DNA from: Candidatus Eisenbacteria bacterium
GTDB lineage: Bacteria > Eisenbacteria > RBG-16-71-46 > SZUA-252
Assembly: GCA_005893275.1 (NCBI GenBank)
Contig: VBOW01000036.1
Span: 1-43,406, forward strand
Length of the DNA: 43,406 nt
Direction: 5' to 3'
Positions 235 through 43,406 of the stretch are shown here, in pieces. A program made the position numbers and the translations under genes. Below the pieces are notes generated by a model, which did no database searches, was not told the origin of the DNA, and was given only the letters and a program-made list of their open reading frames with translations. Each line of letters starts with the position of its first letter. Position 1 is the first letter of the stretch.

Positions 235-310
235 TGGAGCCCACGAGCGGAATCGAACCGCTGACCTTTTGCTTACCATGCAAATGCTCTACCGACTGAG
301 CTACGTGGGC
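235..310 (-). tRNA. tRNA-Thr (GGT)
   Basis: A 76-nt tRNA on the minus strand. The 7-bp acceptor stem GCCCACG/CGTGGGC closes; the anticodon stem TTTGC/GCAAA holds loop ATGGTAA with anticodon GGT; the T arm carries GGTTCGATTCC. The 3' CCA is encoded (235-237). It is the last tRNA before tuf, matching thrT in the E. coli thrU-tyrU-glyT-thrT-tufB order. Confidence 0.95.
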
Positions 311-639
311 AGTGGTGCGGCGCGCGGCAAAATCGGATGCGAGCAAGGACCGACCTGAAACTTCAGCCCCACAAGGCGCCAAACGACCCGAAAGCTTCCC
401 AAACAGCGCAAAATATCCCGTCCCGACCTCCTCCTCGCGGAAAAAGGTCGCCGGTAGTCGCGAATCTGTAAAGTTAATTCCCCCCAAAGCGGCTGTCAAT
501 AAGAAATTTGGACCCGGCCGCAGATGCGCGGGGAGCGCGCCCGATTCCCCCACCGGGGGCCGGAAGATAACCCATTAATTCATTTACCTGAACATAGATA
601 ACTTGTGTGGAAAGGTGTGGACAACAGGCGCCGGAAAAA
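311..639. other. Gene-free interval between tRNA-Thr(GGT) and tRNA-Gly(TCC)
   Basis: 329 bases with no convincing coding sequence. The only structure I can support is a minus-strand sigma70-type promoter at 471-499 that would re-initiate transcription into tRNA-Thr(GGT) and tuf. Short open frames here run through tRNA genes and are not believed. Confidence 0.6.
471..499 (-). promoter_or_regulatory. Putative sigma70-type promoter for tRNA-Thr(GGT)-tuf
   Basis: On the minus strand a perfect -35 TTGACA (494-499) is followed by a 17-base spacer and TAACTT (471-476) as -10. Predicted transcription start is near 464, about 150 bases before the tRNA. The -35 and spacer are ideal; the -10 matches at only 3 of 6 positions. 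It would give tuf its own promoter inside the tRNA block. Confidence 0.55.
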
Positions 640-715
640 TGGAGCGGGAAACGGGATTCGAACCCGCGACCCTCAGCTTGGAAGGCTGACGCTCTAGCCA
701 CTGAGCTATTCCCGC
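640..715 (-). tRNA. tRNA-Gly (TCC)
   Basis: A 76-nt tRNA on the minus strand. Acceptor stem GCGGGAA/TTCCCGC; anticodon stem TCAGC/GCTGA with loop CTTCCAA giving anticodon TCC; T arm GGTTCGAATCC. The 3' CCA is encoded (640-642). It corresponds to glyT in the conserved tRNA-tuf block. Confidence 0.95.
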
Positions 716-792
716 TCAAAGTGTTGAGCCCACCGGCGGACATCCGCCGGCGGAGGCATTGGCTCATCAGATGGTAACCGTTCGGCTGGGTG

Positions 793-874
793 TGGAGGGG
801 GAAGGATTCGAACCTTCGAAGGCTAAGCCGGCAGATTTACAGTCTGCTCCCTTTGACCGCTCGGGAACCCCTCC
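793..874 (-). tRNA. tRNA-Tyr (GTA), CCA not encoded
   Basis: A class II tRNA of 82 nt without CCA. Acceptor stem GGAGGGG/CCCCTCC, anticodon loop CTGTAAA with anticodon GTA, a long variable arm (CGGCTTAGCCTTC region) and T arm GGTTCGAATCC. After the A discriminator (793) the DNA reads CAC instead of CCA, so the 3' end must be completed by a CCA-adding enzyme, unlike the other three tRNAs of the block. Confidence 0.95.
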
Positions 875-904
875 GGCATGCGACCCTTTGCTGAACCAAA
901 GATC

Positions 905-980
905 TGGAGCTGGCGAAGGGACTCGAACCCCCAACCGCCTCATTACAAATGAGATGCTCTACCAATTGAGCTACGCCAGC
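905..980 (-). tRNA. tRNA-Thr (TGT)
   Basis: A 76-nt tRNA on the minus strand and first of the block. Acceptor stem CGCCAGC/GCTGGCG, anticodon stem TCTCA/TGAGG with loop TTTGTAA giving anticodon TGT, T arm GGTTCGAGTCC. CCA is encoded (905-907). It corresponds to thrU of E. coli. Confidence 0.95.
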
Positions 981-34130: not shown

Positions 34131-36146
34131 TTACAGCACGTGCCGTGGGTCGACGTCTACGCTGACGCGGAGGCCCGTCCGGGCTCTCGCCCGGAGGGCG
34201 GGAACCGCCCCCTTCAGATACGTTTGAAGCGTTTTCCGCGAGCCGCTCCGGATCAGAATGTGCCAGCGCTCCGCCCCCTGGATTCGCGCGATGGGTTTGG
34301 GAGCCGGCCCGAGAAGCTCCACCTCGACACCGCGCGCGAGCGCGGCAAGCGTGTCCCGGATCATGCCCGCCTCCCGGATGACGCGTTCTTTCTTCGCGCC
34401 GCGGATCTCGATCTCGACGAGGTGCCCGAAGGGTGGATAGCAAAGCTCTCTCCTTTCGGCCGCCTCCTGGTCGAAGAACATCTCGAAGTCCTGGGCCGCG
34501 GCGCACCGAAGCGCCGGATGCTCCGGATCGTAGGTTTGGAGGATTACCTCTCCGGCGCGCTCCCCCCGTCCCGCCCGGCCGGCGACCTGGGTCAGGAGCT
34601 GAAAGGTCCTCTCCGCGGCGCGGAAATCGGGCAGATAGAGCTGCAGGTCCGCCACGATGATCCCGACGAGCGTGACCATGGGGAAATCGAATCCCTTCGC
34701 GACCATCTGTGTGCCGAGGAGGAAATCGGTCCCCCCCGCGCGGAACGCGCTCAGGATCGCCGCCGCCGAGCCGCGCTTCCGCGTGGCATCGAAATCGAGC
34801 CGCGCGATCCGCGCCTTGGGGAAGAGCCGGGCGACCTCTCGTTCAATGCGCTGGATTCCGACGCCGCCGAACCACAGGTTCGAAGCCCCGCAGCCCGCGC
34901 ACGCGGGTGTGAGCTTCCGTTCGGCGCCGCAGTAGTGGCACCGGAGGGACTGATCCTCGAGGTGCACCGTGAGGGAGACATCGCAACGCTCGCAGCGCGC
35001 CACGTCGCCGCACCCTCGGCACTGCAGATACGTCGAGTGCCCGCGGCGGTTCAAGAAAAGGATGGCCTGCTCGCGCCGCTCGAGGGTTTTCGCCATGGCG
35101 AGGACGAGCGGAGGGGTGAGGTAACGCGACCCGCCGGCCGGCGCGGAGGCCGCGCGATGGCGCAGATCGGTGATTCGCACCGTCGGAAGGGGCCTCCCAT
35201 CGATGCGCCGCGTCAGGCGGAGAAGCCCGCACTGCCCGCGCTTCACTCGCGCGAAACTCTCCAAGCTCGGAGTCGCCGAGGCGAGGATCACCGTCCCTCC
35301 CAACCGCTGCGCGCGCACGAGCGCCACGTCCCTTGCGTGGTACCGAGGGGCATCGTCCTGCTTGTAGGCGCCGTCCTGCTCCTCGTCCACGACGGCAAGG
35401 CGGAGGTTTCGGAAGGGCAGGAACACCGCCGACCGGGTGCCGACGACGAGGTCGATTTCCCCCGCCGCCGCGGCGCGCCACACATCCGCGCGCTCCCGGG
35501 GACGGAGCGTGCTGTGGTAGAGCGCCACCCGCTCGAATCCCGCGCGGCGGAAGGAGTCGAGGGTCTGGGGCGAGAGGGCAATCTCGGGGACGAGGATGAG
35601 GGTCTGACCACCGAGCTTCAACGCCTCGGCCGCCGCGTGGAGGTACACCGCGGTCTTGCCGCTTCCGGTTACCCCGAAAAGGAGGAACGCGCGAAACTCG
35701 CGCGTGCGGAGCGCCTCCTCGAGCGCAACGAGCGCTGCGAGCTGCTCCTCGTTCAATTCCTCGCGCCGCGGGGGCGCGACCGCGAGCCACGCCGCCGCCT
35801 CTTCGGCCGGGCCGCGCGCCGCGCGGCGGGTGAGCCCGGTCGGGGAGGGGACGGCCGCCTGGAGCACATCACTCAGGTTGGCGGCGTAGTAGTCGGCCAC
35901 CCAGCGGCAAAGATCGAGAAGCTCGGGGGTGACCACCAGACGGGGCTCGGGGATCCCCGAGATCCGGCGCACCCGGAATTCCGGAGGGGTCGCTTCGACT
36001 CCCAGGACGGTTCCCCAGACCCGGCGCGCCCCGACCGGCACGAGGACGCGGAGCCCTACCTCCGGGGTCTCCTCCTCCGGGATCTCGTAGACGAGCGCCT
36101 CTTCTCGGGCAAGGGGGATGGGAACGGCGACGCGGACCAAGGCCAT
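34131..36146 (-). CDS. priA: Primosomal helicase PriA
   Basis: 671 aa. Restarts collapsed replication forks by loading DnaB. N-terminal 3'-DNA-binding domain, then Walker A GVTGSGKT (158-165), Walker B box DEEQ (254-257; DEEH in E. coli), and helicase motifs GTRSAVFLPF, ASATPSLES and TQVAGRAGRG. The zinc-binding insert (about 375-425) has CRGCGDVARCERC and CHYCGAERKLTPACAGCG, eight cysteines. Start: ATG at 36146 (MALVRVAVPIPL); an in-frame GTG at 36161 adds five residues. No Shine-Dalgarno is visible and a possible -10 lies just upstream, so it may be leaderless. Confidence 0.95.
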   Translation of the reverse strand: MALVRVAVPIPLAREEALVYEIPEEETPEVGLRVLVPVGARRVWGTVLGVEATPPEFRVRRISGIPEPRLVVTPELLDLCRWVADYYAANLSDVLQAAVPSPTGLTRRAARGPAEEAAAWLAVAPPRREELNEEQLAALVALEEALRTREFRAFLLFGVTGSGKTAVYLHAAAEALKLGGQTLILVPEIALSPQTLDSFRRAGFERVALYHSTLRPRERADVWRAAAAGEIDLVVGTRSAVFLPFRNLRLAVVDEEQDGAYKQDDAPRYHARDVALVRAQRLGGTVILASATPSLESFARVKRGQCGLLRLTRRIDGRPLPTVRITDLRHRAASAPAGGSRYLTPPLVLAMAKTLERREQAILFLNRRGHSTYLQCRGCGDVARCERCDVSLTVHLEDQSLRCHYCGAERKLTPACAGCGASNLWFGGVGIQRIEREVARLFPKARIARLDFDATRKRGSAAAILSAFRAGGTDFLLGTQMVAKGFDFPMVTLVGIIVADLQLYLPDFRAAERTFQLLTQVAGRAGRGERAGEVILQTYDPEHPALRCAAAQDFEMFFDQEAAERRELCYPPFGHLVEIEIRGAKKERVIREAGMIRDTLAALARGVEVELLGPAPKPIARIQGAERWHILIRSGSRKTLQTYLKGAVPALRARARTGLRVSVDVDPRHVL

Positions 36147-36220
36147 GGCGCATGGTAGCACTCACGGAGAGGGAAAACCTGGGAGGCGCCTCATCGAAGC
36201 CGATAGGTCCGCGCGCGGCG

Positions 36221-36254
36221 TCCCCTCGGGCTCGAGCTTGTGGAGCCGAGGGGA
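36221..36254 (-). terminator. Hairpin just after the receiver gene, candidate terminator
   Basis: TCCCCTCGG pairs with CCGAGGGGA (9 bp) with a further CTC/GAG inside after a bulged base, loop about 9. It begins two bases after the stop codon of the receiver gene, where the signalling operon ends. There is no T run after it, so termination may be weak, or the hairpin may protect the 3' end. Confidence 0.4.
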
Positions 36255-36256
36255 GC

Positions 36257-36658
36257 CTACGCGGAGGGGGTGGGTCGCTCGGTGACGGTCTGGCCGAGCA
36301 GCTGGTTGATTCGCTCGACCAGCTTTCTGGGGCTGAACGGCTTCGTGATGTAATCATCCGCGCCGACATCGAAGCCCAGCTTCTGGTCGACATTTCGGCC
36401 CTTGGCCGAAAGGAGGATCACCGGAATATGCTGGGTCGCCGCGTTGGACTTGATGCTCTTGCAGACCTCGTACCCATCCAGCTTCGGCATCATGATGTCG
36501 AGCACGATGAGGTCGGGCTTTTCGCTCTTCACCCTTTCGAGCGCCTGCTCGCCGTCGAGCGCGGTGACGACCTCGTACCCCTCCATCCCGAGACTGAAGT
36601 CCAGGATGTGCACGATGTAGATCTCATCGTCCACGACCAGGATTTTCCCTTTGGACAT
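36257..36658 (-). CDS. Stand-alone receiver (CheY-like) response regulator
   Basis: 133 aa, receiver domain only. Acidic pocket VVDDE (8-12), phosphoacceptor Asp54 in IVLDIMMPKLDGYE, and Lys106 in DDYITKPFSP. No output domain. ATG at 36658 follows AGGAGGAGGTGAG, almost a full anti-Shine-Dalgarno match, so it should be highly translated; an in-frame GTG at 36667 lies inside that sequence and is not used. It is 21 bases after the membrane kinase-HD-GYP gene, so it is the likely phosphate acceptor of one or both kinases. Confidence 0.94.
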   Translation of the reverse strand: MSKGKILVVDDEIYIVHILDFSLGMEGYEVVTALDGEQALERVKSEKPDLIVLDIMMPKLDGYEVCKSIKSNAATQHIPVILLSAKGRNVDQKLGFDVGADDYITKPFSPRKLVERINQLLGQTVTERPTPSA

Positions 36659-36679
36659 CCGACTCACCTCCTCCTGTCG

Positions 36680-39283
36680 CTAGGCATGGGTTTTATCGGC
36701 CTCGTGGGCCGCTTCTCCAGCCCGAACTGGCTTCGTATTCTCCTGGAATTCAGGCATTTGGGCGAAGGCCTCGACCACCCTGGGGTCGAATTGGGTTCCC
36801 TTGCACTGGCGCAGCTCCCGCACGGCATCCGCGTGGCTCATCGCGTGCCGGTAGGGCCTCCCCACCGTCATCGACTCGTAGGCGTCGAGAACGGCGATGA
36901 TCCGGGCTCCGAGCGGAATCTGATCTCCCTTGAGCCCCCGCGGGTACCCGCGCCCATCCATCCGCTCGTGATGGGCCAGAATGATTTCGGTCACTTGTTC
37001 CTGGAACTCGATCGGTTTCACGATCTCCGCCGAGCGCAGGGGATGGAGCGCCACCTCCGCCCAGGCCACGTCGTCCAACTTGCCGGGTTCTTGCAGGACG
37101 GAAAGGTCGATCTGTGCCATCCCGACGTCGTGGACGCTCGCAACGTAGGCCAACGCTTCCACGTCCTCCTCCTTGAGCCCCAGCTTCCGCCCCAGCGCCA
37201 CGGCGCGGCCCGCCATCCCTCCCGAGCTCAGCTTGAGCCGGCTCCTGCGCGCGTTCTCGATGATCGCAGCCAGGGCCTTCGCGGTTTCCTCGGTTCGGTC
37301 CGAAGTGCGCTCATGGTCGGAAACGCGCTTCCAGGCCAGCGCGACCCGGTCCGAGAGGGAGGACAGGAGCGCGCGGTCGTCCTCCGTGAAGGGGGTGCAC
37401 GAGACTTTGTTGTTGATGTTGATCACCCCGATCACGCGTCCGTCGATCTTGACCGGGACCGAAAGAAGCGATTTGGTCTCGTATTGATGGCCGTTCGGCC
37501 TGCCGAATCGCGGATCCTCCTCGATGTTGGTGACGAGGAGCGGCTGACCGTGCTTGGCCACCCAGCCGGCGATCGAGTCGCCGATCTTGACGCGGGTGCC
37601 GCAGACCACCTCCTCGCGCAGGCCGCGCGCGGCGCGAATGTAGAGCTCCGCTTTCTCCTCGTCCACGAGCATGAGGGACGCCGTGCGCGCGTTCATGACC
37701 TCCGCGATCATCTCCACCGTGAGCCGGGTCAAATGGTCCGAGACCGAGCGCGACGGGGTCCAGGTGGCGTGGGTGATCACGTTCGCGTCCCCGGCCGTGA
37801 CCGGCAGGACCACGGTGAAGCGCGATCCCACCCCTGTCTCGCTTTCGGCCAGGATCTCCCCACCGTGCCACTCGACAATGCTCTTCGAAACGGTAAGTCC
37901 CAAACCGACTCCCGGGTACTCGCGGGAGAGGGAACTGTCGATTTGATAGAACTTGTCGAAGATCCTCTCGATTTCCTCTTTCGGAATGCCGATCCCCGTG
38001 TCCTCGATTTGGACGCGCACCGTGCGCCCTTCCATCGCCGTCCGGAAGGTCACCGTCCCGCCTTCGTGCGTGAACTTGATCGCGTTGCTTCCCAGGTTGT
38101 GGAGGACGCGCTTCAGCAGGGCCCGGTCCGCCTCGACCACGATCTCCGGCGCCGCCGACTCGACGCGGATCGAGATCTTCTTGGGGCCGGCCATCGAGCG
38201 CAGATTCTCGACCACTTCGTCCGTCAGCGTGATCAGATTGAACGGCTCGCGGCTCATGCGGAACCGGCCCGACTCGAGCTGGGACAGCTCCAGCACCGAA
38301 TCGATGAGGCGCCTGAGCTTCAGGCTCTGGTCGTCGATCACGCCCAGGAACTGGCGCTGCATCTCGACGTTGGGAGACCCCACGCTTTCGAGCAGCGCCT
38401 CCACGTACGCGCGGATCGCGGTCAGGGGCGTACGCAGCTCGTGGGAAACGGTCGAGACGAAGGAGGACTTGAGGTCGTTCAATTCCTCGGCGCGCTCGGT
38501 CGCTTCCTCGAGCTGGCCCATGCTCTGATTCAAGCGCTCGTAGAGACTCGCGTTTTGGATGGCCACGACCGCGTGGGTGGCGAGGATTTCCAGGGTTTCC
38601 ACGGTTTCCCGGGAAGGAAGCCGGCGGTCCACCGGATCGTCGACGGAAAGGTATCCGATCGCGGCGCCGTCCTTCGTGTAGAGGGGGACGAAGAGGACGT
38701 CCTCCTGATGCCACTCCCCTTCCTTCCGAATGCCCAGGTCCGGGGTGTAGCCCTCGTCGTCCTCCTTTCCCCAGAACTTCCGCTCGTGACTGATGAAGTA
38801 GGAGCGGCTGACCCGGAATTCCTCCTTGAGCCAGCTGTCGAATTCGGAGCGCGGGATGGGATGCTGCTCGAGCTTCCGGATCGCTTCGCGGCTCAGCCCG
38901 GCGAACGCGCGGGCCTCGAACTCTCCGCTCGAATCGTTGAGAACGCGCAGGAGGACGATCCGGAATCCCGCCGCTTCCGAAACGGCGTGGACGATCTCGT
39001 GGAGCACCTTGTCGAGGGAGAGGTTCGAATTGATGCTCGTCGCAATCTCCAGCACCTTCTTGATTCGGGCCGCCCGCCTGCGGCTCGTGAGGAGCTGGTA
39101 GCGGTAGAGATCGCCCATCTTGTCGCTGGCCTGGGTCAGCTCCTCGTTCCGGTGGATCGCGGCGTCGTACGACGAACGGAGCGATTTGAGCTCGTGCCGA
39201 AGCGAGCGGCGATGGCGCAGCTGCTCCACGATGAGGAGCACGGAGGCCGCGAGGGCCCAGATCAGCTCAACGGACGGAATCAC
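36680..39283 (-). CDS. Histidine kinase-GAF-HD-GYP fusion, membrane form
   Basis: 867 aa. N-terminal helix (about 6-20) anchors it; coiled coil (about 25-75); GAF 1 (about 80-245); HisKA with His281 in SHELRTPLT; HATPase with N box NLGSNAIKF (396-404), DTGIGIP (428-434) and GVGLGL (458-463); GAF 2 (about 512-655); C-terminal HD-GYP (about 675-850). HD-GYP residues present: His718-Asp719, His747, His771-His772, GYP (779-781), Asp800. But HDIGK reads HDVGM, and the usual upstream His is missing. HD-GYP domains normally degrade cyclic-di-GMP. The start is GTG at 39283, overlapping the paralogous gene upstream by 17 bases. Confidence 0.9.
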   Translation of the reverse strand: MIPSVELIWALAASVLLIVEQLRHRRSLRHELKSLRSSYDAAIHRNEELTQASDKMGDLYRYQLLTSRRRAARIKKVLEIATSINSNLSLDKVLHEIVHAVSEAAGFRIVLLRVLNDSSGEFEARAFAGLSREAIRKLEQHPIPRSEFDSWLKEEFRVSRSYFISHERKFWGKEDDEGYTPDLGIRKEGEWHQEDVLFVPLYTKDGAAIGYLSVDDPVDRRLPSRETVETLEILATHAVVAIQNASLYERLNQSMGQLEEATERAEELNDLKSSFVSTVSHELRTPLTAIRAYVEALLESVGSPNVEMQRQFLGVIDDQSLKLRRLIDSVLELSQLESGRFRMSREPFNLITLTDEVVENLRSMAGPKKISIRVESAAPEIVVEADRALLKRVLHNLGSNAIKFTHEGGTVTFRTAMEGRTVRVQIEDTGIGIPKEEIERIFDKFYQIDSSLSREYPGVGLGLTVSKSIVEWHGGEILAESETGVGSRFTVVLPVTAGDANVITHATWTPSRSVSDHLTRLTVEMIAEVMNARTASLMLVDEEKAELYIRAARGLREEVVCGTRVKIGDSIAGWVAKHGQPLLVTNIEEDPRFGRPNGHQYETKSLLSVPVKIDGRVIGVININNKVSCTPFTEDDRALLSSLSDRVALAWKRVSDHERTSDRTEETAKALAAIIENARRSRLKLSSGGMAGRAVALGRKLGLKEEDVEALAYVASVHDVGMAQIDLSVLQEPGKLDDVAWAEVALHPLRSAEIVKPIEFQEQVTEIILAHHERMDGRGYPRGLKGDQIPLGARIIAVLDAYESMTVGRPYRHAMSHADAVRELRQCKGTQFDPRVVEAFAQMPEFQENTKPVRAGEAAHEADKTHA

Positions 39284-41666
39284 GCTGGTACTTTCCGGTG
39301 GCGGGCGCCGAGGGAGCGCCGGGATGGCTCCCGCCCTTCCGGGCGAGCAGCCTCTCGAACTCCTTGACGACGCGCGGGTCGAACTGCGTCCCGGAGCACC
39401 GCTTCACTTCGGTGAGCGCTTCGGACTCCGGGATCGAATCGCGGTAGGGACGTCCCAGGGTCATAGCCTCGAACGCGTCCACCACGGCCAGGATGCGGGC
39501 GGCGAGCGGGATTTCCTCACCCGAGAGCCCGCGCGGATAGCCGTGGCCGTCGTAATGCTCGTGGTGGCTCAGGATGATTTCGTTCGCGCGCGCGGCGAAT
39601 TCGATCGGCTGAAGCAGGCGCACGCCGTCGCGAGGGTGCGTCTCGACGCGGCGCCGCTCCTGCTCGGTCCACCGGCGTGAGCTCAGGATCAGGTCCTCGC
39701 CCACCGCAAGCATGCCCACGTCGTGGACGCGCGCCACGTACCCGAGCACCTCGAGCTCGTCTTCCCCGAGGCCGAGCTTCCGGCCGAGATCGGTCGAGAG
39801 CTTGAACGCGCGGCGCGAGGTCCAGAGCGAGTAGCTCCGTTTGGCGCGGATCACGGTGCGGATGGTATTCAGGGTCGTGTAGGCGTCTCCCGATGGGCCG
39901 GCCGCCCGCACGCGCTCCAGCGCGGTCCCGACCCGCTTCGAGATCGCGACCAGGAGACTCAGATCGTCGGCGTCGAAGGGAAGCCCGGTCGTCTTGCTGC
40001 TCACGTTCACGACCCCGACCGTTTCGCCGGCGAGCCGAAGCGGCACACACAGGAGCGATTTTGTCTCGTACTGCGGATGATTCAGCTTTCGGAATCTCCG
40101 GTCGTTTTCGATGTCGTTGACGAGGAGGTTCTCCGAGGTCTGCGCGACCCATCCCGCGATCGACGCCCCGGTCTTGACCCGAGCCCTCGCCACCATGTCC
40201 GGGTCGAGACCATGGGCCGCGCGAATGTGGAGCTCGGTTCCGTCCTCGTTGAAGAACATGATCGAGACGTTCCGCGCCTCCATCACCTCGGCCACCATTT
40301 CGACCGCGCTCGAGAGAAGCGTGCGCAGCTCCGGCATCTCGAAGAACGGCTCGAGCGAGCGCATCAGATTCCGGAATCCGCGCTGGACCAAGGGTAGCTC
40401 GACCACGAACCGGCTCCCTTGTCCCAGGTTGCTCTCGACTCGGACCGTTCCGCCGTGAAGCTCCACGACGCTCTTCACGATCGCGAGGCCGAGCCCCGAT
40501 CCGCCGACCCGCTCGGCTCCTCCCTCTTCGACCCGATAGAAACGCTCGAACACGCGACCCAGCTTGTCGGGTGGAATTCCCATCCCGCGGTCTTCGACGA
40601 TGACTTGCATCCGCTCGCCGGCCTGCCTCGCGTGAATCGTGATCGGGGAACCTTCCCGGGAGAACTTGGCCGCGTTGCCGATGAGGTTCACAAGAACCTG
40701 CTTCAGGAGGTCGGGATCCGCCTCGATCGCGGGCAGCTCGGGGGCGAGGTCGGGAACGACGGTGAGACGCTTGGACGCAAGCTGCGGTCCCACGGTCGGC
40801 AGGATCTCGTCCAGCAGCCGCCCCAGCTCCAGCGGTTCCGACCGGAGCCTCCGTCGTCCGGAATCCATCCGGCTCAAGTCGAGCACATCGTTCACGATCC
40901 TGGTCAGGCGGTCGCATTCCTCGTTGATGATCCCGAGGAACCGATCCTGCATCGAGAACGCGGGATTCCCCACGTTGTCGAGCAGGGTCTCGGTATACGC
41001 CTTGATCGAAGTCAGCGGGGTCCGAAGCTCGTGAGACACGACCGAGATCAGCTCGGATTTCATCTCGTCGAGCCGCCGCAAGGACGCGTTGGCTTCGTCG
41101 AGCCGGATCGTCTTCTGTTCGAGCTCCGCGTGCGTGCGGATCCGGTCGACCGCGAGGCCGATCTGGTCGGCGAGGAAAAGCAGCGCCCGGCGCCTGCGCG
41201 CGCTCGCTTTGAGCGGCCTGCTGAAACCCAGGAGCGCGACCCCCAGGAGCGAGGTCCCAACGATGATCGGCACGCCGACCAGGGCGTGAGGCACCTGCCC
41301 GCTCCAGTGAAGCTCCTTCCAATCCGCGGCCTCCATGCGGAGCGCGTCTTCGACGATGAGCGTCTCGCGCCGCAGAACCTGCGCGAGGAACCCTCCGGGA
41401 CGCGGTGTCACCCGGCAGGTCCCCGCGGGCCCGTTGGTGCCGCGCCCAAAGTGGTCCCCGCGCAGCTCGCCGGATTCGTAGTCGAGCAGAAGAAGCGAGA
41501 AGAAATCGGCCCGCGCGAGCTCCAGCACGTGCCGCGCCACAGCCGCCACGAGCCCCTGGGCATCGAACGCGGACTGGACGGCAAAGCTGAGGCTGGAGAG
41601 CCCCGGGAGGAGGCGAAAGGCCGACCCGGCGCCGCGGTCGGGTGTGTCGTCGGGGCGGTTCAGCAT
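39267..41666 (-). CDS. Histidine kinase-GAF-HD-GYP fusion, soluble form
   Basis: 799 aa, no membrane segment. GAF 1 (about 25-180), HisKA with His212 in SHELRTPLT, HATPase with NLIGNAAKF (327-335), DRGMGIP (359-365) and GSGLGL (389-394), GAF 2 (about 445-590), HD-GYP (about 605-785). HD-GYP residues: His648-Asp649, Met652 in place of Lys, His677, His701-His702, GYP (709-711), Asp730. Same domain order as the next gene and clearly its paralogue, with similar GAF 2 domains (SIAGWVA, HQYETKSLL versus HPQYETKSLL). ATG at 41666 overlaps the REC-GGDEF stop by 7 bases. Confidence 0.9.
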   Translation of the reverse strand: MLNRPDDTPDRGAGSAFRLLPGLSSLSFAVQSAFDAQGLVAAVARHVLELARADFFSLLLLDYESGELRGDHFGRGTNGPAGTCRVTPRPGGFLAQVLRRETLIVEDALRMEAADWKELHWSGQVPHALVGVPIIVGTSLLGVALLGFSRPLKASARRRRALLFLADQIGLAVDRIRTHAELEQKTIRLDEANASLRRLDEMKSELISVVSHELRTPLTSIKAYTETLLDNVGNPAFSMQDRFLGIINEECDRLTRIVNDVLDLSRMDSGRRRLRSEPLELGRLLDEILPTVGPQLASKRLTVVPDLAPELPAIEADPDLLKQVLVNLIGNAAKFSREGSPITIHARQAGERMQVIVEDRGMGIPPDKLGRVFERFYRVEEGGAERVGGSGLGLAIVKSVVELHGGTVRVESNLGQGSRFVVELPLVQRGFRNLMRSLEPFFEMPELRTLLSSAVEMVAEVMEARNVSIMFFNEDGTELHIRAAHGLDPDMVARARVKTGASIAGWVAQTSENLLVNDIENDRRFRKLNHPQYETKSLLCVPLRLAGETVGVVNVSSKTTGLPFDADDLSLLVAISKRVGTALERVRAAGPSGDAYTTLNTIRTVIRAKRSYSLWTSRRAFKLSTDLGRKLGLGEDELEVLGYVARVHDVGMLAVGEDLILSSRRWTEQERRRVETHPRDGVRLLQPIEFAARANEIILSHHEHYDGHGYPRGLSGEEIPLAARILAVVDAFEAMTLGRPYRDSIPESEALTEVKRCSGTQFDPRVVKEFERLLARKGGSHPGAPSAPATGKYQRDSVR

Positions 41667-42688
41667 CCGGAGAGCTCCGGCGGATCGGGCGTGGGGGATT
41701 CCACGGCCGGCATGATCGGTGAGCCGTCCAGCCGCCGGTCGGGAATGACCACGCTTCCCTGCATCGCCTTACCGCGCTTCTTGAGCTCCTTCGCGATGTC
41801 GCTCACCTGGGCGCTGTGTTGGATATCGCGGCCCTCGTTGCTCACGATCAGAACCGTGACCGACATCAGAGCGAATTTCTTCACGCCTCCCTGGCGGCTC
41901 GAGAGCACCGTGATATGCCCGCGCTTCAGATCCAGCTCGTCGTAGTGCTCCCGGATCCGCGAATCGAAGGTCGTTTGGATCGCGTCCGCGATGGACCGCG
42001 CCCGCTCCGGGATCGTGATCACCACGAAATCGTCTCCGCCGATGTGGCCCACGAAGTCCCCCGATATTCCGTACCGCTCGATCTGTTCGTGGAGCAGCGC
42101 CGCGACGAAGCGGATGACCGCGTCGCCCCGGGCGTACCCGTAGTAGTCGTTGTAGGCCTTGAAGTAATCGAGGTCGATGTGCAGGAACGAGAATTTCTCT
42201 CCCCGCTCGATCCTCCGCGAGAGCTCGGTCTCGATGAGCACGTTCCCCGGAAGACCGGTGAGCGCGTTCGATTGGAGCTGGGCGCGCCGTGTCTTGAGCT
42301 GGTTCCGGACGCGGAAGAGAAGCTCGTTTTGCGCCCACGGTTTCGTGATGTAGTCGTCGGCGTAGAGCTCAAGGCCGTGGATCCGGTCCTCGAAGGTCGA
42401 CTTCGCGGTGAGAAAGATGATCGGGATGCGCGAGGTGAGGGGGTTGGCCTTGAGCTGCCGGCACACCTCGTAGCCGTCGAGACCCGGCATCATCACGTCG
42501 AGCAGGATCAGCTCGGGAGGATCGCGTCGAACTTCCTCGAGGCCGCGCACGCCGTCCTCCGCCGTGCGCACTTCGTACTGGGCGTCCTTGGCGTCGCTGA
42601 GCTGCTTCTGAAGAATGAACCGGAGCTTGGGATCGTCCTCGATGACAAGGATTCGCCCGGTCTCGGGCGTGGATGCGTCCTGGCTCAC
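41660..42688 (-). CDS. Receiver-GGDEF response regulator (diguanylate cyclase-like)
   Basis: 342 aa. Receiver domain (about 11-130) with Asp64 (ILLDVMMPG) and Lys116 (ITKPW). GGDEF domain (about 140-310): FLHIDLDYFKAYNDYYGYARGD, then GHIGGDDF (GGDDF at 217-221, where the family usually has GGDEF or GGEEF). No Arg-x-x-Asp inhibitory site is seen just before it. If active it makes cyclic-di-GMP from GTP. The start is GTG at 42688, six bases after GAGGTG; another GTG lies three codons upstream. The open frame extends to 42919 but that part is not protein-like. First gene of the signalling operon. Confidence 0.88.
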   Translation of the reverse strand: MSQDASTPETGRILVIEDDPKLRFILQKQLSDAKDAQYEVRTAEDGVRGLEEVRRDPPELILLDVMMPGLDGYEVCRQLKANPLTSRIPIIFLTAKSTFEDRIHGLELYADDYITKPWAQNELLFRVRNQLKTRRAQLQSNALTGLPGNVLIETELSRRIERGEKFSFLHIDLDYFKAYNDYYGYARGDAVIRFVAALLHEQIERYGISGDFVGHIGGDDFVVITIPERARSIADAIQTTFDSRIREHYDELDLKRGHITVLSSRQGGVKKFALMSVTVLIVSNEGRDIQHSAQVSDIAKELKKRGKAMQGSVVIPDRRLDGSPIMPAVESPTPDPPELSGC

Positions 42689-42892
42689 GCGTGACACCTC
42701 GAATTCCGTTTCATGCGCCGTGGCTTGCGCGTGCGGCTTCCGAACCGCCAAAGGGCGGAACTTGGTACCGCTCTTGGAAATGTTCGGCTTTCCCGATGGC
42801 GATCTTGAGCCGGGGTGTGGGATTAGGGTGCGTTCCGGGTGGGCTGAGGCGTTGCAAATTGCACGGTGGTGACAATCCAGGGGCAAAGGGCC

Positions 42893-42922
42893 AGTGACGC
42901 CCCACTTGCCCCGGGGCAAGTT
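42893..42922. repeat. 30-base repeat copy 1 containing palindrome A
   Basis: Shares 26 of 30 bases with 43069-43098, starting AGTGACGCCCC. Inside is a perfect 18-base palindrome, ACTTGCCCCGGGGCAAGT (42904-42921). The four differences from copy 2 are two symmetric pairs that keep the palindrome perfect. Confidence 0.8.
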
Positions 42923-43127: not shown

Positions 43128-43406
43128 TCAGACCGGCAACGACGAAAACGAGTCCAGGTTGGCGATGGCGGTGGCGGTGAAGGGGGTCGCTTGGCCGCCC
43201 TGGAGCCTCAGGGAGCCGGCGTACGCAATCATCGCCCCGTTGTCGCGGCAGAGCTTGGGGGAGGGAAACAGGGCCGGAATCCCCCGGGAATGGGCGAGGC
43301 CCGCGGTCTCGCGGCGGAGCAGCGTGTTGCAGGCGCAACCCCCCGCGACGGTGACGGCGCCGGCTTCGAACCGGGAGAGCGCCTGCGCGAGCCGCTCGAC
43401 CAGAGC
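43128..43406 (-). CDS. tsaD: tRNA N6-adenosine threonylcarbamoyltransferase TsaD (3' end only)
   Basis: C-terminal 92 residues; the rest lies beyond the window end. Translation reads ALVERLAQALSRFEAGAVTV, then AGGCACNTLLRRE (AGGVAANxxLR in most homologues) and FPSPKLCRDNGAMIAYAG, the conserved C-x-DN-x-AM-IA motif of TsaD. With TsaB and TsaE it makes the t6A37 modification in ANN-decoding tRNAs. The stop is TGA at 43128-43130. Confidence 0.93.
   Translation of the reverse strand, partial: ALVERLAQALSRFEAGAVTVAGGCACNTLLRRETAGLAHSRGIPALFPSPKLCRDNGAMIAYAGSLRLQGGQATPFTATAIANLDSFSSLPV

Follow-up and report, generated by a model that had tools for sequence, protein, structure and literature searches.

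Paired histidine kinase-GAF-HD-GYP fusion proteins at a tsaD-priA locus of Candidatus Eisenbacteria, with HD-GYP domains lacking catalytic residues as candidate ligand sensors

The DNA analyzed in this work (the window) comprises 43,406 nucleotides of contig VBOW01000036.1 (GCA_005893275.1) of Candidatus Eisenbacteria bacterium, and the elements under study are two adjacent minus-strand genes, A and B, each joining a complete histidine kinase to a second GAF domain and an HD-GYP domain in one chain. The arrangement, put forward in an original prediction made from the sequence alone, was borne out by a Pfam search, in which GAF (two stretches), HisKA, HATPase_c and HD_5 exceeded curated cut-offs in both proteins (HD_5 E-values 2.7e-33 and 1.4e-34) and no receiver (Response_reg) or GGDEF domain was found in either chain. 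Gene A (39267-41666, 799 aa) encodes a soluble protein with the order GAF1-HisKA-HATPase_c-GAF2-HD-GYP, with HisKA at residues 202-270 (40857-41063; phospho-acceptor H212 within SHELRTPL), HATPase_c at residues 317-427 (40386-40718), GAF2 at residues 447-584 (39915-40328) and HD-GYP at 39369-39860. Gene B (36680-39283, 867 aa) repeats this order behind a transmembrane helix, with HisKA at residues 272-339 (38267-38470; phospho-acceptor H281), HATPase_c at residues 386-496 (37796-38128), GAF2 at residues 517-650 (37334-37735) and HD-GYP at 36776-37258. Both HD-GYP domains carry the motif HDVGM, in which Met652 of A (codon 39711-39713) and Met722 of B (codon 37118-37120) occupy the position of Lys225 in PmGH, the GAF-HD-GYP enzyme of Persephonella marina (PDB 4MCW). 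B starts with GTG within the 3' end of A, giving an overlap of 17 nt (the A stop ends at 39267 and the B GTG begins at 39283). The prediction that one protein is membrane-bound and the other not agreed with a hydropathy scan: the N-terminal helix of B (39227-39277; Kyte-Doolittle 19-residue mean 2.28, one charge) is a probable membrane anchor, and A has no hydrophobic helix except inside its GAF domain. The same helix recurs in B of families f1, f3 and f6 and of genomes G181, G318 and G071, and was not found in B of f8.

The pair proved to be part of a larger operon than had been claimed. Directly upstream of A lies a receiver-GGDEF (REC-GGDEF) response regulator (41660-42919, minus strand; Response_reg 7.2e-28, GGDEF 5.7e-17), a predicted diguanylate cyclase with motif GGDDF, whose stop overlaps the ATG of A; its longest start is the TTG at 42919, with the in-frame GTG at 42688 as a second possibility. 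A lone receiver of 133 aa (36257-36658, minus strand; Response_reg 2.8e-31) follows directly downstream of B. The operon is flanked on the right by priA (34131-36161, minus strand; PriA domains) and, on the left, by the 3' end of tsaD, a tRNA t6A enzyme gene (43128-43406, minus strand; TsaD 2.1e-9), which is cut at the contig end and is complete in the same place in loci L038 and L047.

For residue comparison, 120 fused HD-GYP domains from 74 of the 111 genomes carrying the fusion were placed in PmGH numbering alongside 86 control HD-GYP frames. According to the available parts of the PmGH report (PMC4159591), the metal ligands are E185, H189, H221, D222, H250, H276, H277 and D305, with H189 named as an H-site ligand, E185 as the M-H bridge and H221 as the H-site marker; alanine substitution of each of these apart from E185 and D305 all but abolishes hydrolysis, as do D183A and K225A, and the complex with cyclic di-GMP (c-di-GMP) contained G-site iron only. 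Lys225 was kept in none of 119 fused domains (98 Met, 18 Leu, 2 Ala, 1 Ile), Asp183 in one and His189 in three, and 115 of the 119 had none of the three, as against 78 of 85, 66 of 84 and 79 of 84 controls, respectively, with all three present in 65 of 84. The E185 position was Asp or Glu in 13 of 119 fused domains. Neither the full PmGH ligand set, including E185 and H189, nor the Asp183/Lys225 pair of an active PmGH-type phosphodiesterase was found in the fused domains. D222, H250, H276, H277 and D305 occurred together in 114 of 120 (singly, out of 119: 116, 116, 115, 118 and 117), and the GYP tyrosine, Y285, was present in 114 of 119; two of the six domains without at least one of the five ligands are cut or gapped. 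H221 was kept in 76 of 118. Tyr replaces the HD histidine in 32 of 64 fused domains from other phyla, and in 26 of 28 gene pairs the copy nearer REC-GGDEF has His221 and its partner Tyr; A and B of the window both carry the HD and GYP signature residues. With the H-site side and the Asp/Lys pair lost and the rest kept, the pocket might hold a ligand without cutting it. Sensing therefore appears likelier than turnover, since residues needed for hydrolysis in PmGH are missing from essentially every fused HD-GYP, and the originally presumed coupling of phosphorelay to c-di-GMP turnover within one polypeptide found no support.

The fold around these residues was examined by structure prediction. 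PmGH (4mcw) was the best relative of the whole C-terminal half, by sequence (E 3.8e-56) and by Foldseek (4mcw_B, E 1.2e-15). Protein A was modelled with AlphaFold2 (mean predicted local distance difference test score, pLDDT, 82.8), and the GAF2-HD-GYP part was modelled separately (pLDDT 87.8) because Foldseek with whole A returned mostly kinase rows. The latter model aligned to 9rbz_D with Z 21.5 (root-mean-square deviation 5.1 over 195 aligned positions) and to 4mcw_B with Z 19.5 (16.9 over 315), and the HD-GYP fold is intact in the predicted structure. Ratios of nonsynonymous to synonymous substitution (dN/dS) within f1, for A and B against three relatives, were 0.08-0.25 in HD-GYP and 0.05-0.38 in the other domains; the HD-GYP domain of the window is thus under purifying selection, and no decay is seen in f1.

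Four phylum-level groups contained the fusion, in 111 of their 140 genomes. In the home group (47 genomes) at least one full fusion was found in 32 and two in 18, with carriers in families f1 (9 of 9), f3 (1 of 1), f6 (3 of 3) and f8 (19 of 20) and none in the 14 genomes of f2, f4, f5, f7, f9, f10 and f11. Outside the home group, full-span fusions were found in at least 6 of 338 genomes (among 385 relatives), a lower bound because only three candidates were scored per genome; group-wise follow-up gave 5 of 5 in the group of G253, 5 of 8 in that of G181 and G318, and 69 of 80 in that of G071, the last count including a few partial matches at contig ends. As predicted, the architecture is unusual: in other bacteria a kinase stood on one of 86 HD-GYP frames (80 loci, among the matches listed), and the fusion looks rare outside the four groups. 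That frame, from a Chlorobiaceae metagenome-assembled genome (L136:1-1650), reads histidine kinase-REC-HD-GYP in one chain and is an independent fusion with a receiver in between. The control set is biased, its loci having been picked by the patterns HHE..DG.GY or Y.A..HD.G and ranked by similarity to the sequence labelled A3; these patterns leave positions 183, 189 and 225 free, and the first helix is missing from two truncated control frames. Literature on kinase-HD-GYP fusions and degenerate HD-GYP domains, judged from titles and the beginnings of abstracts, does not name this architecture, which does not establish its absence in print.

Both kinases of the window retain the phospho-acceptor His, the Asn and the G1 Asp. 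The HisKA phospho-acceptor was present in 53 of 58 members of the first row set and 63 of 64 later hybrids, and the HATPase_c Asn and G1 Asp in 56 of 58 and 63 of 64. The phospho-acceptor was lost in G181 A, in the first gene of G318 and in the single copies of G044 and G045 (Thr for His). Motif residues suggest pseudokinases in G181 A, in the first gene of G318 and in the L236 and L237 counterparts of G181 A (L188:9807-12710, L189:11813-14011, L236:2905-5544 and L237:1137-3500), and in each case the partner is intact. Such losses cluster in the gene nearer REC-GGDEF, and their confinement mainly to one partner suggests, without proving, that the partners act together. In G181 (L188:7243-12710) A and B match at 99.6% over 465 bp of their HD-GYP tails, against 29% identity between the kinases, an outcome of gene conversion or of very recent copying of the tail.

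Duplication had been predicted from the resemblance of the GAF2 and HD-GYP parts. A and B are indeed paralogs, and the duplication is not limited to those parts: identity is 42% across 626 aa, beginning at the kinase and running to the C-terminus (42% in the kinase and 41% in HD-GYP). Kinase and HD-GYP phylogenies were built separately, with long branches dropped before tree tests (55 of 61 kinase rows and 59 of 63 HD-GYP rows kept). The kinase tree recovered an A clade (f1 and f8, support 89) and a B clade (f1, f8, f3 and f6, support 91). A recent kinase duplication was rejected, since forcing f8A with f8B or f1A with f1B gave approximately unbiased test values (p-AU) of 0.013 and 0.006; the kinase was duplicated before the f1/f8 split. 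All fused HD-GYPs formed one clade against outgroups (support 100). A quick HD-GYP tree grouped f8A with f8B (support 92), a possible sign of HD-GYP swapping in f8, and the alternative f1A-f8A clade was not rejected (p-AU 0.44).

Loci were read in every one of the 32 fusion-carrying genomes of the home group and in 42 of the 79 in other groups (74 of 111 in total), and carriers share the gene order tsaD, REC-GGDEF, fusion kinase(s), lone receiver, priA. Of the 32 home-group loci, 30 have REC-GGDEF upstream of the fusion, 29 have the lone receiver downstream and 25 have priA after that, with all misses at contig ends; in a second set of 36 loci, tsaD was found in 28, REC-GGDEF in 31, the lone receiver after the last fusion in 34 and priA in 33, and several of the misses fall at contig or region ends. 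In four families of the third group (f260-f263) an extra kinase without HD-GYP precedes the pair. The fusion-less families f2, f4, f7, f9 and f10 have tsaD, REC-GGDEF, lone receiver and priA in this order with both regulators adjacent, and f5 has the same order with a contig end inside REC-GGDEF; some flanks in fusion-less families lay beyond the sequence read. The fusion most simply would have arisen at this locus and then been lost from some of the families. In f11 the gap holds a 473-aa transmembrane-GAF protein (L197:7832-9253) that matches GAF1 and the start of the dimerization helix of B (E 2e-8) and in which no Pfam kinase or HD-GYP domain was found, suggesting a relic or a repurposed sensor. 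A separate GAF-HD-GYP gene reading HDLGK or HDIGK lies between the lone receiver and priA in G145 and G283; G181 likewise has one, and such genes adjoin the lone receiver in L188, L205 and L206.

Conservation within the locus is highest in the lone receiver, with identities of 78-97% in f1, f6 and f8, 64% in f3, 61-69% in G181, G318 and f77, and 50% in G071, unlike the kinases and REC-GGDEF, which drop to about 40-50% between families. It may be a signaling hub. Across most families of the class it is about 80% identical, and it persists with REC-GGDEF even where the fused kinases are missing.

Elsewhere in the genome, c-di-GMP signaling is likely present, given 5 GGDEF, 7 HD_5 and 1 PilZ matches; EAL gave no match. 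Four of the five other HD-GYP domains read HDxGK and, judged by this motif, could serve as phosphodiesterases. The fifth (L069:5593-7890) has RD..M in place of HD..K; it adjoins a canonical REC-HD-GYP.

We consider it somewhat better than an even bet (roughly 0.55) that A and B are paralogous sensor kinases in which a GAF2-HD-GYP half without catalysis persists as a regulatory domain that binds a ligand, most likely c-di-GMP. The GAF2-HD-GYP half would have descended from a separate PmGH-like GAF-HD-GYP phosphodiesterase gene and subsequently lost its catalytic residues. c-di-GMP would most likely bind what survives of the metal pocket and shift A and B between kinase and phosphatase states, and GAF1 would receive a second signal, making A (cytosolic) and B (membrane-anchored) two-input sensors. 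They probably phosphorylate the lone receiver, the adjacent REC-GGDEF or both; were REC-GGDEF a target, its c-di-GMP would feed back on its own kinases.

Several points weigh against this interpretation. Arg314, which contacts c-di-GMP in PmGH, gives way to another residue in 20 of 119 fused domains; the helix with positions 183, 185 and 189 is aligned with less certainty than the remainder; and Asp183 is also replaced in 18 of 84 controls. The copies in the window keep H221 and D222, which may leave them a metal site of some kind and possibly a hydrolysis that is slow or different. The available parts of PMC4159591 describe RpfG as an enzyme that hydrolyzes c-di-GMP without equivalents of E185 and H189, and loss of these two therefore proves nothing by itself; the argument rests on Lys225 and Asp183. 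DvhD of Desulfovibrio vulgaris (PDB 9RBZ), described as a non-hydrolyzing HD-GYP that binds c-di-GMP, lost both HD and HH motifs, whereas fused domains keep HH and usually HD. The pairing of kinases with receivers is drawn from gene neighborhood, and c-di-GMP binding and hydrolysis behavior of the A and B tails are predicted from their residues.

A wider proposal, held tentatively and at less than even odds, is that the locus in the four groups constitutes a vertically inherited, closed c-di-GMP circuit, in which the product of REC-GGDEF would act on the catalytically dead HD-GYP tails of the paired kinase, possibly an A/B heteromer, and thereby reset phosphorylation of the near-invariant lone receiver hub. 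Under this proposal, HD-GYP would have become a direct c-di-GMP input of the kinase through repeated replacement of the catalytic Lys by Met or Leu.

Two other functions of the tail were weighed against ligand-regulated kinases. It seems rather unlikely that HD-GYP is a structural or dimerization module, or a binder of another ligand, with the kinase controlled by GAF1 and GAF2 and c-di-GMP uninvolved. GAF2 of A and B resembles cyclic-nucleotide GAFs (Lcd1 with cAMP, 5w10; PDE2/PDE5 GAFs) and may bind a nucleotide of its own, and the six domains short of a ligand and the replacements of Arg314 would fit such a role; mere dimerization, however, needs neither the five ligands nor the GYP tyrosine, and a diguanylate cyclase homolog is immediately adjacent in almost every locus. 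Unlikely as well is that A and B are bifunctional, combining a kinase with an active, altered (binuclear, lysine-independent) c-di-GMP phosphodiesterase such that the kinase state directly sets c-di-GMP breakdown. Retention of the five ligands and, in the window, of the HD motif, the activity of RpfG, and the standing of HD-GYPs as the only recognized c-di-GMP phosphodiesterase class of a genome with no EAL match speak for it, but the losses of Lys225 and Asp183, both needed in PmGH, the four HDxGK proteins that could do the job, and the frequent Tyr for the HD histidine in other phyla speak against it. Fusion of separate kinase and HD-GYP genes by assembly error, or chance reading frames, could be argued from the separate GAF-HD-GYP genes of some relatives and from G001, where gene A (L040:1819-4325) is split into HK-GAF2 and HD-GYP frames by a frameshift or assembly error, but is ruled out for practical purposes by conservation of the fusion across the surveyed genomes, including single-contig assemblies (G019, G465 and G466), and by purifying selection on every domain.

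Among known systems, RpfG-type REC-HD-GYP regulators have HD-GYP as the output of a receiver, in a protein separate from the kinase. They resemble A and B in tying HD-GYP to a phosphorelay and, in RpfG, in the missing E185 and H189 equivalents; no receiver stands N-terminal to HD-GYP in A or B. PmGH shares with A and B the GAF-HD-GYP order and fold, the five ligands and GYP, but is an active, free-standing enzyme with D183, E185, H189 and K225, which the kinase-borne fused domains lack. DvhD offers a precedent for what is proposed here, an HD-GYP fold without catalysis serving as a c-di-GMP-binding domain; unlike A and B it is a PAS/dCache transmembrane receptor without a kinase, and the DvhD-type loss of HD and HH is not seen in the window, where the Lys225, Asp183 and His189 positions were lost instead. 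SgmT of Myxococcus xanthus, described as a kinase whose C-terminal GGDEF binds c-di-GMP as a receptor, likewise combines an N-terminal GAF, a histidine kinase and a C-terminal c-di-GMP-metabolism domain, but has a receiver and GGDEF rather than GAF-HD-GYP and is described as an orphan kinase, not one of a paired operon. ShkA of Caulobacter, described as a kinase stimulated when c-di-GMP binds an internal domain, uses a pseudo-receiver as the c-di-GMP site and has no HD-GYP. None of SgmT, ShkA and DvhD shares the architecture of A and B, which would be c-di-GMP-responsive histidine kinases of a variant architecture, their responsiveness being predicted. If so, HD-GYP would join GGDEF (SgmT) and the pseudo-receiver (ShkA) as a c-di-GMP input domain of histidine kinases, and annotation could tell a sensing HD-GYP from a cutting one by a Met or Leu in place of Lys225, the loss of Asp183 and His189, and retention of the five ligands. 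The comparison also exposed, at tsaD/priA in four phylum-level groups, a conserved regulatory locus whose lone receiver is far more conserved than its kinases.

Two further features of the window were recorded. A 1071-aa open frame (36152-39367, plus strand) runs antisense to B and was interpreted as a side effect of high G+C coding in the opposite strand. Toward the other end of the contig lies a cluster of four tRNA genes (Thr, Gly, Tyr and Thr; 235-980, minus strand).

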